Of a DNA stretch of 40,775 nucleotides, positions 15,920 through 32,326 are shown piece by piece. The stretch comes from Caldifarciminota bacterium. GTDB taxonomy: Bacteria > Hydrothermota > Hydrothermia > B15-G9. The translations under genes were made by a program, and so were the position numbers. Numbering within the stretch: position 1 is the stretch's first letter; each line of letters opens with the position of its first letter. Below the pieces are notes generated by a model. That model did not search any database. It saw only the letters and a program-made list of their open reading frames with translations, and had not been told where the DNA came from. The stretch is from contig WGAI01000071.1 in the NCBI GenBank assembly GCA_015489175.1, forward strand, positions 1 to 40,775, written 5' to 3'.

Positions 15920-18900
15920 TCAGAAATTGCGTTTTTTGCCCTTGTTCTCCTTGAATGTGTTCTCTTTTAATTTCACGCTCGTGCCAAAGAACCGATCCGT
16001 TATCTTCGCCCCTTCAAGGAATATAACATAAGGCGTTGAGTTACGAGCAAATGTGTTCTTCAAGATTTTAACTTCGGATTTTATTATGTAAACGCAATAA
16101 GCAGCGTTGTTTCTGAACACATTGTTTTCTATCAATGCCTTTGCTCTATTGATCCATATCACATGCCTATCAGCCTTGTGGCCCCAAAAATCGTTGCCCC
16201 TGATCTCCACCTCGCTTTTCTGATGCACGGATATGCCATCACCTTCATTATCATGGACTTTATTGCCCTCAATAATCGCTCTGGATTCCTGAACCATTAT
16301 TGCGGAGAACTTATCGGGATGTTTCCACAGGTCATTGCCTTTGATTTTGGCCTCGCTGTTCTTGTTTATCCATATCCCGACATCACGGTTATTGTGTAAC
16401 CTGTTGCTCTCTATAGAGGCCTTTGAATCTTCAATGACGATCGACGGATAATCGTTGTCCCATATCTCGTTCGATCGGATCTCGGCATCGGCTTTCTGCT
16501 TGATGTAGATACTTATGTCCTTGTTTCCGGTTATCTTGTTTAGATCAAGTCTCGCGGAACCTCCAAACACGACGATTACGGGATATTTCTCAGGATTACC
16601 TCTGAATTCGTTGCCCCGCGCCTTCAGGGTGGAGTTTTCTGATACGATCGCGGAGCTTGTGTTATCGTGGAACCTGCATTTTTCGACCGAAATACGGGCA
16701 TGCTGAACCTTTATCGGTGGGTTTTTAATGTAGCTTGAGAATTCAACACCTTTGATTGTCACATCGCTGTTGGAATATACGAAGAAACCCACGCCGTGGT
16801 TGTCATAGACTTTGCCAAGCTCGACGGTGACATGTGCGCCCTTGATCTCGACAGCTGGACTTTCTTCAAAATGGCGCCAGATCTCGTTCCCTTTCATAAC
16901 CACATCGCTTGATGGCATTATCTCGATGCCTGCTCCCTTGTTGTCGTGGATTTTGTTGCCCTCGAGGAGAGCGCGCGCTTCCTGAATCGCGATCGCTGGA
17001 TGCTTTTCCAGATGACGCCAAATCTCGTTCTCCTTCATAGCAAGCTCGCTGCCCTTGTAAACTATGATGCCTGTTCCACGGTTGTCATGCACCTTGTTGC
17101 CCTCAAGGTAAATCTTCGAGCTATGAATCCATATAGGTGGCGCTTTGTGCCCCCAGAAATCGTTTTCCTTCAGGACGGCCTGTGTGTTTTGCTTCAGCAT
17201 AAGCCCGGATGCGACATTGTCATAAATCTTGTTGGCTTCCATAGTAACTTTTGAACCAATCACCTGAATCGCAGCTACCTCATTGACCTGCTCGCTTCTG
17301 TGGCTCCAGATCTCGCTGTTCCTGATCGTAAGCTCGCTATTTGTGTGAACCAAAATCCCGTTTTGCTCGTTGTTGTAAACTTTTGAACCTTCAAGCGTCA
17401 ATTTTGACTCTTCCACAACAATGGCATCCTCTGAGCACCCCCAGATCTCGACATTAGACAGAGTAACATCGCTGTTGCTCCTTATGCGATAAGCGCCACC
17501 GTGATTGTCCCTTATTCGATCGCCGTTTGCGATAAGCTTGGATTCCTGAACGACAACAGCGGGCACAGTGGGTGGCTGCTCATAGAATTCGTTTGACGAT
17601 GTGGTTACCTCACTATTTGTAAAAATGGAAAGTGCACCTTGCTGGTTCTGAAAAATCCTGTTGTTCTCGATGTAAGCCTTTGATCCAGTTACCGATATTG
17701 CGGAGCCTTCATGCGCCCAGATGGAGTTATTTGCTATGTGGACATCGCTGTTCCCCAGAACTACAATGCCGTTGCCGTTGCTATCATGAAAACTGTTTTC
17801 CTCGATCTTAACCTCGCTTTTTATCACCTTGATGCCTACGGCGCAGTTGAGGAAAGAGTTCTGTTCAATAGATATATCCGAACAGTTCTCAAGGTCTATT
17901 GCGCCGATATCGCCCGGTGCATCGAGCATGCCACCAGCTATTTTTAGGTTTTTGATCAATACAGAATTCACGCCCCTGCCGACAAACACAGGGCCATCGT
18001 AGTTTTTAACGAAAACTTTACCGTCACCAATGATGTTGATGCCACTTTTAAGGTTTATCTGCTCGACATAGATACCACCTTTGACCCAGATCGTGTATCC
18101 GTCGCCCGCCCGTCTCACAGCGTCGCTGATCGTGTCGAAATCCCCGTTGCCGTCCTGAGACACCACAAATTCCTTCTTCTGCATCCTTGTAACACGACGA
18201 AGTCCTTCAACAGCGGCGTCATTGTGGGGATCGATGCGAAGTATCTCCTTGTATAACTCTTTGGCTTCCTGGAAGTTACCATCTTCTTCAAGGAGCTGCG
18301 CTTTATCAAGTCTCTCTTTAATCTCTATTCTCTTAATCGCTTCTATCGCATACTTGTTGGTCGGATCCTTGTTGAGAACAGCCTGATACTCCTTCTTGGC
18401 ATCCTCGATCTCGCCCATCTCCTCGAAGATCGCAGCTGCACGAAGATGCCCCGCTATCTCCGGATCCTTCACATCCTCTGGCACTCCCTCATCGGCGGAA
18501 GGAACGGCCTTTTTACGTTTTTCCTCTTGAAGGGCGGAAATTATGTAATCCTTGAACTCGTCAGCGCTCTGAAACCTGTTTGCTGGATTGGGATCGAGAC
18601 ATTTCCGAATGGCCTCAGAAAGCACATTTGGCAGGTCATCGAGTCCCCTCAGGATGGCGAGTGGCTGTAAACCAGTAGCCATCTCGTATAGCACAGCGCC
18701 AAGGTGCCAGATCTCCGTCCTCTCGTCTATCTTCCCGTTCTTCTCCTCAGGCGCCATAAGTCTATCGCTGTAAAGGAGGTCGCCAATGCCGTAATCCACC
18801 AGCTTGACAGAAAGATCACCTGCCACAACCACCGTGTCAGAGGTAAGCGCACCATGCAGAAGTCCAGCCGTATGCCCGTAGGAAAGCGCCTCAGCAATGG

Positions 18901-19378
18901 AAATACCGATCTTGATTATCATCGGTGGATCAAACTCGCCGCCCTTACCCAAAATCTGCTTAACAGGCTCGCCTTCGGTGTATTCATACACGATGAAAGC
19001 AATATCGCCATCCTGATCAATGTCTATCATCTTCAGGATGTTGGGATGGCTCAAAGTAAAAGCCGTGCGCAACCGAGCCTTCAGAAGATCCGGCGTGTCA
19101 GGCGGTATTACCCTCAGGATCAGCTCCCTATCAAGTTTCCTATCCTGCGCTTCGAAAAATAGACCTTTCCACGGCAATGGCGATTTCACCTTGAAACGAC
19201 CAGATAAGATTTTGCCAACCAGCTTTTCAACAAGAATGTCTTCGATCATGGTGAGTTTATGATACCGTCCCTCAATCGCTTCAGTCAAGCATACAGGGGA
19301 CACTATAAAAAGTGCGTAAAATAGCAGAAAGAGCCATAAATTAAGGAATTCAAAAAACGGAAAAATGTTAGATGGCAC
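15920..19378 (-). CDS. Protein-kinase-like (probable pseudokinase) / TPR / right-handed beta-helix repeat protein
   Basis: 1152 residues from GTG 19378. Residues 7-31 form a hydrophobic segment. Residues ~56-285 align with a Ser/Thr kinase fold, but key positions are lost: there is no glycine-rich loop, the usual ATP lysine is Arg89, and HRD is HGA at 185-187. DYG (195-197) and APE (209-211) remain. A TPR region follows (~315-400). From ~415 there is a pectate-lyase-like beta-helix with about 13 two-rung units of ~44 residues, each repeating a pattern like HDN-x-G-x-GI then NEIW-x-H. The role is unknown; a membrane-linked scaffold or carbohydrate-binding surface protein is plausible. The start is uncertain: GTG 19378 has no ribosome binding site, and ATG 19249 (residue 44) would remove the hydrophobic segment. 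Confidence 0.85.
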   Translation of the reverse strand: MPSNIFPFFEFLNLWLFLLFYALFIVSPVCLTEAIEGRYHKLTMIEDILVEKLVGKILSGRFKVKSPLPWKGLFFEAQDRKLDRELILRVIPPDTPDLLKARLRTAFTLSHPNILKMIDIDQDGDIAFIVYEYTEGEPVKQILGKGGEFDPPMIIKIGISIAEALSYGHTAGLLHGALTSDTVVVAGDLSVKLVDYGIGDLLYSDRLMAPEEKNGKIDERTEIWHLGAVLYEMATGLQPLAILRGLDDLPNVLSEAIRKCLDPNPANRFQSADEFKDYIISALQEEKRKKAVPSADEGVPEDVKDPEIAGHLRAAAIFEEMGEIEDAKKEYQAVLNKDPTNKYAIEAIKRIEIKERLDKAQLLEEDGNFQEAKELYKEILRIDPHNDAAVEGLRRVTRMQKKEFVVSQDGNGDFDTISDAVRRAGDGYTIWVKGGIYVEQINLKSGINIIGDGKVFVKNYDGPVFVGRGVNSVLIKNLKIAGGMLDAPGDIGAIDLENCSDISIEQNSFLNCAVGIKVIKSEVKIEENSFHDSNGNGIVVLGNSDVHIANNSIWAHEGSAISVTGSKAYIENNRIFQNQQGALSIFTNSEVTTSSNEFYEQPPTVPAVVVQESKLIANGDRIRDNHGGAYRIRSNSDVTLSNVEIWGCSEDAIVVEESKLTLEGSKVYNNEQNGILVHTNSELTIRNSEIWSHRSEQVNEVAAIQVIGSKVTMEANKIYDNVASGLMLKQNTQAVLKENDFWGHKAPPIWIHSSKIYLEGNKVHDNRGTGIIVYKGSELAMKENEIWRHLEKHPAIAIQEARALLEGNKIHDNKGAGIEIMPSSDVVMKGNEIWRHFEESPAVEIKGAHVTVELGKVYDNHGVGFFVYSNSDVTIKGVEFSSYIKNPPIKVQHARISVEKCRFHDNTSSAIVSENSTLKARGNEFRGNPEKYPVIVVFGGSARLDLNKITGNKDISIYIKQKADAEIRSNEIWDNDYPSIVIEDSKASIESNRLHNNRDVGIWINKNSEAKIKGNDLWKHPDKFSAIMVQESRAIIEGNKVHDNEGDGISVHQKSEVEIRGNDFWGHKADRHVIWINRAKALIENNVFRNNAAYCVYIIKSEVKILKNTFARNSTPYVIFLEGAKITDRFFGTSVKLKENTFKENKGKKRNF

Positions 19379-30166: not shown

Positions 30167-32326
30167 TTACCTGACAATCAGGAAAATAGGCTGATTTGAA
30201 TTCACATTGCCAAGCGAAAATGGATGTTGCGGAATGCGGTAAGGCGTAACAAATTTCTCATCAAAATAATTCTTGACTTCATGAATAACATAATTCCATA
30301 GTTCCTTAACCGTAAGGACATTATCGCTGTTATAATCCGCATATCCTCGTAGTCCTTGAAGCATAAAATAAGTAAACACACCATGTCCAAGCTCTGCGTC
30401 CTCGACAGAGGGTTCATTTTTGTAAGATGAGAAGAGGAATATTCTGGAGTTAGGTTTCTTCACCGTTATCTTTTTGAACATAAGGCTACCACCACGAAAT
30501 ACAGTTGTAACCAGAGGCTCTGTATTGTCTTCCGTGCCTGCGTAGCACGCATCAATTACCACCAAAATGAGTCCGGCATTTGATTTATCTATCTCCTCAG
30601 CAAGCCAATGATACGAGATAGCTGTCCGAACAGTGGTATCCTTCACAGTGAGGATCTCGCGCTGCTGTTCTTCGTCCCAGTATAGACTATCCTCCCATAA
30701 AGTATTGTAACAAAGCAAATAATTCTCCCTACGTGCGATATCGAGATACCCGTGAGTTGCAAAATAGAGTAAGACAACATCGTTCGTATCAGCAGTGGAA
30801 AGAACTTGGTGCATAAGAGCCTTAGCACTATCGGAAATAAAATCAGTGCCCACAAGCGCATAAGGATAGAACTCTGCGTAGCTGTTAGGAGCTAATTCGT
30901 TAAGCAACATAGATAAGGATATGGCATCCTTCTCGGCAAAGTTGAGAGGCGGATATCCGTTGCTTATGCTGTTCGTGTTTGTTCCCATGACTATGTAGTG
31001 AAATCGCTTTTCCCTAAGGAAATTACGGGGATCAGGTTGCTTATCAACTGCAATCTTATCCAAATCTTTTGGCGTTTCGTATTCAGGGGAGAGAACGAGC
31101 TCATAGATTGTGGAACTTTCTACCCCTTCATGTGGATCTTCGGCTGGGGTCTTCGAATAGAAAAACACCAAATATTTTTCGTCATCGGAGGCTGAAGATA
31201 TCGACAGATCGTAATATAGCAGCGCCTCGCTGTTCTCGGGGCGATATTGTGCTATTTCCTTTGGCCTGCCATCAGGCAAATTTATCGAGAAAAATCTTAT
31301 CGAGCCGGTAGATTTGTCCATCACTCCCATAACCGTGGTGTCTCCGGAAAAGGCAATATCGATTTCGTGCGGTCCCGGAGAATCAAACAGCGGATTCGTG
31401 ATAAGCACCCATTTCATGTCGGTGAGGTCGAAGATACTTAGCCGGGTCAAAGTATCACCCAAAACGAGGTAATAGTGCCCCTTACTGATAATCTCAAGAT
31501 CCTGAACACCTTCCAAAATGGGATCAGGATTAAGTGGACCTTCGTTTATATCAAACACCATGACTCTGCCTTGCTGATCCAAGGCATAGAAATGGATATC
31601 ATCATTGAGGAACCTGATAAGGGAAACGGGGCCACTCATTTTGAAAGAACTTTTGAGTATCAATGTATCTCCCCTGTCAGGACCGGGTATCCTCTGATAT
31701 ACCATTATAGTATTATCGGAATACCCAACACCTACGTAATTCGCGTGTGGAGATATGGCAAGTGCAGTAACCTCAGGGGCATATTTGTTGTTAACAAAAT
31801 ACTGAAAAAAGCCAGACGGAGTTTCCCAACCCCATCCACCCAATTTGTCTTTGAGAATCTTGTTGGCATAAAGGCTTGACCACATACCACCTGCCACAAC
31901 AAGATATCTTCTATCGTCAATTTTACCCATAGAAATTATGTCATACCCACGACCTATGTTGATTTTCAGCATGGACGCCATCAAATCAACAGAATCAAGA
32001 GCCGATGTTTCAATCGGAGCCAAAAAGATGTCACCTTCGAATTTCAAAAAACCCACGACATCCCCGTCAGGTGTCATGGCAAGAGATTTGATTTCGCCTT
32101 CCACATAGTATTCTTTATTTTTTTCAACCACGAATTCAACAGGCTTAATAGGCCTTTCGGGTTCGGCGGGTTTTTGAGGTTCCTCTTTTTCAGTTTCCCG
32201 GGCAACATCATTAGCAATATCAAGGCTAACAGGGTCAGTGCCAATATAGCTGGTCGCCCAGGGCCCCCTATACCCTCCCCCATCCATCGTGATTGCAGCT
32301 GTCAATATCAATACAACGATTGACAT
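30167..32326 (-). CDS. Caspase-family (C14) protein with N-terminal beta-propeller
   Basis: 719 residues. A short hydrophobic N-terminus (residues 2-13) may be a weak signal peptide. A Pro/Glu-rich linker and a WD40-like or YVTN-like beta-propeller follow (about residues 70-420). The C-terminal region is a caspase-fold peptidase with an intact dyad: His525 in YFATHGYLD and Cys594 in IDACYAGT. Near the end, DYNSDNVLTVKELW resembles a Ca-binding EF-hand loop, as in many bacterial caspase homologues that need calcium. GGGGGG precedes ATG 32326. The function and substrate are unknown; roles in regulated proteolysis, cell death or signalling are possible. Confidence 0.88.
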   Translation of the reverse strand: MSIVVLILTAAITMDGGGYRGPWATSYIGTDPVSLDIANDVARETEKEEPQKPAEPERPIKPVEFVVEKNKEYYVEGEIKSLAMTPDGDVVGFLKFEGDIFLAPIETSALDSVDLMASMLKINIGRGYDIISMGKIDDRRYLVVAGGMWSSLYANKILKDKLGGWGWETPSGFFQYFVNNKYAPEVTALAISPHANYVGVGYSDNTIMVYQRIPGPDRGDTLILKSSFKMSGPVSLIRFLNDDIHFYALDQQGRVMVFDINEGPLNPDPILEGVQDLEIISKGHYYLVLGDTLTRLSIFDLTDMKWVLITNPLFDSPGPHEIDIAFSGDTTVMGVMDKSTGSIRFFSINLPDGRPKEIAQYRPENSEALLYYDLSISSASDDEKYLVFFYSKTPAEDPHEGVESSTIYELVLSPEYETPKDLDKIAVDKQPDPRNFLREKRFHYIVMGTNTNSISNGYPPLNFAEKDAISLSMLLNELAPNSYAEFYPYALVGTDFISDSAKALMHQVLSTADTNDVVLLYFATHGYLDIARRENYLLCYNTLWEDSLYWDEEQQREILTVKDTTVRTAISYHWLAEEIDKSNAGLILVVIDACYAGTEDNTEPLVTTVFRGGSLMFKKITVKKPNSRIFLFSSYKNEPSVEDAELGHGVFTYFMLQGLRGYADYNSDNVLTVKELWNYVIHEVKNYFDEKFVTPYRIPQHPFSLGNVNSNQPIFLIVR

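Follow-up and report, generated by a model that had tools for sequence, protein, structure and literature searches.

Bacterial pseudokinases are largely uncharacterized (PMC12599244). Among them, EssB/YukC of the type VIIb secretion system has a non-catalytic scaffolding role, and MviN is another bacterial pseudokinase scaffold (PMC12599244). None of the families in that paper, including DYD and CP1, is described with TPRs and a beta-helix. A fusion of a kinase to a pectinesterase, from Nostoc sp. PCC 7120 (gi 17229994), was listed in 2005 (PMC1262709). Since that survey set aside kinase-like sequences without the catalytic aspartate, the Nostoc fusion is presumably catalytic. As for beta-helices inside cells, there is a eukaryotic precedent in the adaptor FBXO11 (PMC8825234).

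We analyzed a stretch of 40,775 nucleotides (the window) from an uncultured bacterium of the Hydrothermota. The minus strand of the window encodes a protein with matches to Pkinase, TPR_2/TPR_14, and Beta_helix, in that order along the chain (Pfam). This agrees with a preliminary description of the DNA, which had placed TPRs after a kinase-like region in a single chain: the ORF at 15920-19378 is present without interruption. The features of this protein, which we will call the window protein, are listed in Table 1. The window protein is real, and one small group of uncultured bacteria has conserved it. Comparisons of sequences and predicted structures strongly support its fold, its catalytic death, its conservation, and its start site.

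Table 1. Features of the window protein and its gene. Residue numbers count from the ATG at 19249, here and in the text, unless the GTG frame is stated.
Feature	Residues	Position in window	Strand	Evidence or remark
Pseudokinase-TPR-beta-helix protein, 1109 aa		15920..19249	minus	Preferred start ATG at 19249; intact in 4 genomes
In-frame 5' extension from GTG, with hydrophobic stretch		19250..19378	minus	Non-conserved
Sigma-70-type promoter TTGACT-N18-TATCAT		19259..19288	minus	10/12 consensus positions; conserved in orthologs
Pseudokinase domain	10-247	18509..19222	minus	Pfam Pkinase, phmmer to Stk1/PknB, Foldseek, motif table
Degenerate glycine loop PLPWKGLFF	24-32	19154..19180	minus	Active kinases have 2 more residues here; alignments and motif table
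Arg replacing ATP-binding lysine (R46)	46	19112..19114	minus	Invariant in 4 orthologs
Arg replacing alphaC glutamate (R59)	59	19073..19075	minus	Two alignments
HGA replacing HRD	132-134	18848..18856	minus	Alignments and motif table
Thr replacing catalytic-loop Asn (T139)	139	18833..18835	minus	Alignment and motif table
DYG, DFG equivalent, kept	152-154	18788..18796	minus	Alignment and motif table
TPR region, five helices, ~2.5 repeats	262-357	18179..18466	minus	Pfam TPR_2/TPR_14; model helices 263-357
Right-handed beta-helix, ~30 coils, short basic tail	360-1109	15923..18172	minus	Pfam, DSSP of model, periodicity

Orthologs, start codon, and location in the cell

We found full-length orthologs in a single reading frame in three other genomes: G001 (98% identity), G002 (77%), and G003 (57%). 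All three have the same three-part order, and they were also recovered as separate public records. The nearest named records are metagenome-assembled genomes of candidate division WOR-3/Hydrothermota (the closest is JALVZN010000117.1). Between the window's own genome (G000) and G001, dN/dS is 0.023 overall, or 0.027 for the kinase domain, 0.012 for the TPRs, and 0.023 for the beta-helix. The low ratio in the kinase domain implies that this domain is held by selection even though it is dead.

These orthologs bear on whether the gene is degenerating, or is an artifact that fuses a fragment of a kinase to a beta-helix gene. The kinase motifs are indeed degraded, but the orthologs share one pattern of losses, dN/dS is about 0.02, and the same full-length frame is present in four genomes from separate assemblies. 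We give these explanations a negligible chance. In particular, the join recurs intact in three other assemblies, which rules out an assembly error.

The true start codon is most likely the ATG at 19249. In G001 and G002 the conserved sequence begins at this ATG, whereas in G003 it begins at residue 2. Starting at the GTG at 19378 instead would add 43 residues that include a hydrophobic stretch, but in G001 a stop codon interrupts the frame 28 codons before the ATG, and in G002 and G003 the sequence upstream of the ATG is unrelated to the extension in the window. Also, the -10 element of a promoter (TATCAT) ends 9 nt before the ATG. G001 and G002 have identical -35 and -10 elements at an identical distance to the ATG, and G003 has TTGACG-N18-TATCAT-N10-ATG. 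The simplest reading of the promoter's position is a leaderless or near-leaderless transcript from the ATG. We judge that the extension is not translated in the main product. As a separate observation, the conserved -35/-10 elements (19249-19288, minus strand) suggest that leaderless transcripts occur in this lineage.

The choice of start codon affects the predicted location of the protein. The preliminary description proposed a possible N-terminal membrane segment, which arises solely from the GTG start: the highest Kyte-Doolittle mean over 19 residues is 2.27 in the GTG extension versus 1.14 from the ATG. If the GTG were used, the window protein could be an exported or membrane-anchored receptor, with the beta-helix facing outward, and many beta-helix proteins are exported. 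However, the hydrophobic segment is missing from all three orthologs, and the conserved -35/-10 elements lie between the segment and the ATG, so a transcript from that promoter excludes the segment. Furthermore, no second hydrophobic stretch follows it, so the membrane would not separate the kinase domain, the TPRs, and the beta-helix from one another. Based on the start codon, the orthologs, and the promoter, we reject a membrane or receptor topology as very improbable.

Because the conserved promoter is directly before the ATG, and because the protein that starts there has no hydrophobic segment, the window protein is most likely cytosolic. The conflict that the preliminary description had pointed out, in which the beta-helix suggests export and the kinase suggests the cytosol, then disappears. 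Bacterial signaling-type proteins may thus include very long right-handed beta-helices in the cytosol, and it would be unsafe to annotate a protein as exported on the grounds that it has a beta-helix.

The kinase domain, the TPRs, and the rod

The kinase-like fold that was proposed initially is supported by Pfam, Foldseek, and AlphaFold2. The Pkinase family (PF00069) matches at 4.4e-15 (56.2 bits, versus a cutoff of 31.7), and this match, together with the two-lobed fold, identifies a Hanks-type protein kinase fold. The match begins only at position 54 of the profile, which implies that the N-lobe is degenerate. Stk1/PknB is the best NCBIfam kinase model for the domain. Similarly, the best matches are Stk1 from Staphylococcus aureus and PknA/PknB from Mycobacterium tuberculosis, both by phmmer against solved structures and by Foldseek with two AlphaFold2 models. 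The top PDB matches from Foldseek are bacterial Ser/Thr kinases (TM of 0.76 by target for S. aureus Stk1). The AlphaFold2 model of the whole chain has the kinase fold, the TPR helices, and the beta-helix, with a mean pLDDT of 88.5; for the kinase and TPR part alone, pLDDT is 89.4. The pTM of the whole chain is 0.62, so the placement of the domains relative to each other is not confidently predicted.

Judging from its sequence, the kinase domain is dead: of the usual criteria for activity, it retains only the DFG and APE motifs. The glycine loop, the VAIK lysine, the alphaC glutamate, the HRD aspartate, and the catalytic asparagine of an active Ser/Thr kinase are all replaced; the DFG aspartate and the APE motif are kept. 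The shortened P-loop carries the bulky residues W27, F31, and F32. Both the arginine and the aspartate of HRD are gone. From DYG to APE the chain has about 14 residues, with most of the activation segment missing, and the alphaG region, where substrates dock, is deleted (alignment). No other lysine or HRD aspartate was found that could take the place of those lost.

Several of these losses had been recognized in the preliminary description. It was right that the glycine-rich loop is lost, and that Arg89, which is R46 from the ATG, is at the position of the ATP-binding lysine in the GTG ORF. It also identified HGA in place of HRD, but the motif is at 175-177 of the GTG ORF, not 185-187.

The pattern is shared by the orthologs. 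All four proteins have lost the P-loop glycines, the lysine, the HRD aspartate, and the asparagine; all four have kept DYG/DFG and APE; and R46, D138, and D152 are invariant. In contrast, the other readable kinase domains that we sampled in the phylum keep the lysine, the HxD aspartate, the asparagine, and the DFG aspartate, and the ATP-binding lysine is present in every readable domain outside the window protein's family (motif table).

The invariant Asp152 (of DYG) and Asp138 may reflect binding of nucleotides or metals, or an unusual transferase activity. For instance, the domain might be a repurposed enzyme that binds a nucleotide and uses these residues for another kind of transfer, as in AMPylation by the pseudokinase SelO. 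HGALTSDT...DYG in the window protein resembles Hgvmntdn...DYG in SelO (motifs HG..(N/T).D(N/T) and DYG), as tabulated in PMC12599244, and invariant D138, D152, and R46 would suit such an enzyme. Also, the DYD pseudokinases, in which the lysine is replaced by arginine, are predicted to bind ATP (PMC12599244). But SelO keeps the lysine and the asparagine (PMC12599244), while the window protein has R46 and T139 and has lost the alphaC glutamate as well, and its short, bulky P-loop also counts against this explanation. SelO was not among the best sequence or fold matches, which were to PknB/Stk1. We consider a repurposed enzyme to be improbable.

The TPR assignment is based on matches above the cutoff for TPR_2 and TPR_14 and on five helices in the model. 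This is the most conserved part of the protein: 74% of the columns are invariant, versus 50% for the beta-helix and 44% for the kinase domain.

The rest of the protein is a rod. Beta_helix (PF13229) matches at 1.4e-95 (317.7 bits, versus a cutoff of 25.9), and this match and the regular coils indicate a right-handed parallel beta-helix. The preliminary description was correct about the beta-helix, but it counted about 13 units of about 44 residues, while we find about 14 pairs of coils. The repeating unit comprises two coils and 45-47 residues, with peaks in the autocorrelation at 47, 92, 45, and 23. There are about 28 clear coils in addition to N-terminal ones. A-type coils (IHDNxGxG) have 23 residues, with the pattern EGNKIHDNxGxGI, and they alternate with B-type coils (NEIWxH), which have 22-24 residues and the pattern xxNEIWxHxExxPAI. 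If each coil adds 4.8 angstrom, the rod has a calculated length of about 145 angstrom. Twelve of the 13 Trp positions in the rod are invariant, compared to 50% of all rod columns. The invariant Trp and His form a ladder on alternate coils.

This ladder could also be explained if the beta-helix were the business end of an intracellular protein that acts on carbohydrates or other polymers, with a kinase-TPR head that only recruits it. Besides Beta_helix, Pfam reports NosD and a weak match to Pectinesterase at the start of the rod. Furthermore, such repeats are named CASH, for carbohydrate binding or sugar hydrolysis (PMC8825234). On the other hand, no specific family of lyases, epimerases, or hydrolases matched the rod above the cutoff (Pfam and NCBIfam profiles), no beta-helix relative of the rod was found by sequence search of the PDB, and we saw no carbohydrate gene cluster beside the gene. 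We think that this role is unlikely.

Distribution and related proteins in the phylum

Across 147 genomes of the phylum, we found kinase-TPR-beta-helix proteins only in family f1, to which the window's own genome belongs; this survey covered an ORF sample and kinases that are similar enough to detect, and it might have overlooked a fully diverged case. In 20 regions with long kinase ORFs, and in the loci returned by searches, profiles built from the window protein's own family detected no beta-helix outside family f1. We found no relatives in viral contigs. The plasmid records that were listed had separate matches to the kinase or the beta-helix, and none of them covered most of the query.

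G003 also encodes another protein with these three parts in this order, which is split over two contigs (L020:1360-1884 contains the N-terminus and L018:1227-3227 contains the rest). The glycine loop and the lysine are missing from this protein too, but the aspartate of HGD is retained. Its beta-helix is of a different, GGG/PMP-like type. The kinase and TPR parts align to the window protein (33% identity, E = 5.7e-30), but the rods do not, and the two proteins group together in the kinase tree (support 100/97, with long branches). This fits with a single ancestral pseudokinase-TPR head whose rods have diverged or been exchanged since.

The window's own genome contains just three Pkinase domains: the window protein and two with intact motifs, of which one is fused to a UvrD helicase and the other is in a kinase-PEGA protein. 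As for a partner phosphatase, there is no match to PP2C_2 (PF13672) in this genome. The kinase-UvrD/Rep helicase fusion (L016, G000:C72) is a Ser/Thr kinase of about 900 amino acids (Pkinase, 1.3e-58; UvrD-helicase, 1.8e-61). Similar fusions are encoded at L012, L019, L022, and L024, and kinase ORFs of comparable length occur widely across the phylum. Elsewhere in the same class, in families f9 and f4, intact-motif kinases adjoin a gene for a PP2C-like phosphatase at six loci (L005, L006, L008, L009, L043, and L044).

We noticed a few other proteins. L030:580-3789 and L031:2017-5163 (family f6 of the same class) encode beta-helix proteins of about 1050 amino acids with no visible signal peptide; their N-terminal domain is helical and conserved, differs from the window protein's, and has no Pfam match. 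Within the window, 30167-32326 (minus strand) encodes a Caspase (Peptidase_C14) domain after a beta-propeller-like region, and the N-terminus resembles a signal peptide.

The gene's neighbors in the window are DAK2/DegV, rpsO, and pnp. The downstream gene is DAK2/DegV in G000 and G001 and an unrelated AIR-synthase-like gene in G003. Because the neighboring genes are not conserved, we rejected a function based on an operon. We found no structured RNAs or tRNAs in the window. We also rejected a defense system: the PADLOC matches are generic kinase matches, and those to PD-T4-6 type defense kinases cover only the kinase domain, whose active site is dead.

Proposed role and comparison with known systems

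The best explanation, and probably the correct one, is that the window protein is a cytosolic scaffold or adaptor derived from a kinase that is now catalytically dead. We infer this role from the anatomy of the protein, because the gene neighbors are not conserved. The preliminary description had suggested a scaffold or receptor; the scaffold is likely, but without a membrane segment, a receptor is not.

The pseudokinase domain and the TPRs would form a protein-docking head. Because the TPRs are the most conserved part, the TPRs and their junction to the rod may be the main interface. The long rod, with its alternating turns of invariant Trp-His and His-Asp-Asn-Gly, would bind an extended or repetitive partner, or would space the bound proteins. 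Candidate partners are the kinase-UvrD helicase fusion and the kinase-PEGA protein from the same genome. With three kinase domains in the genome, one of which is dead and under strong purifying selection, the role of the window protein could be tested against two candidate kinases.

A broader idea is possible, though on the speculative side: these proteins might be a lineage-specific class of intracellular scaffolds, in which a dead kinase-TPR head is combined with giant beta-helix rods that can be interchanged (of the NEIWxH/IHDN type in the window protein, and GGG/PMP-like in the paralog from G003). They would organize a repetitive cytoplasmic partner, and a remnant of a nucleotide-dependent switch might persist at Asp138/Asp152.

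Among the pseudokinases, EssB/YukC is similar to the window protein in that the catalytic motifs, the glycine loop, and the activation loop are all degraded (PMC12599244). But EssB/YukC spans the membrane as part of a secretion system and has no TPRs or beta-helix, while the window protein has no membrane segment from the ATG and, given its neighbors, is not in a T7SSb locus. DYD pseudokinases share the replacement of lysine by arginine, but they are membrane-associated proteins of actinobacteria and firmicutes with the DYD motif (PMC12599244), and the window protein is soluble and has DYG/DFG. CP1 pseudokinases are soluble, like the window protein, but are tied to COG3899 (PMC12599244), and no COG3899 ATPase domain was found in the window protein with Pfam and NCBIfam profiles.

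Other known proteins share the domain order in part. Proteins with a kinase domain followed by TPRs are well known, and one of them, PknG (PMC8546545), is among the PDB matches of the window protein; unlike the window protein, PknG is catalytically active and lacks a beta-helix. The Nostoc fusion joins a kinase domain to a pectinesterase domain, whose fold, like that of the rod, is of the right-handed beta-helix type; the fusion is cyanobacterial, and its published description does not mention TPRs. In FBXO11, an N-terminal domain that recruits is combined with beta-helix (CASH) repeats that recognize the substrate (PMC8825234), much as in the proposed adaptor, but FBXO11 is eukaryotic and has an F-box in place of the pseudokinase and TPRs, so this is only an analogy. 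Each pairwise element thus has a precedent, and the new point is the three-part combination with a dead kinase.
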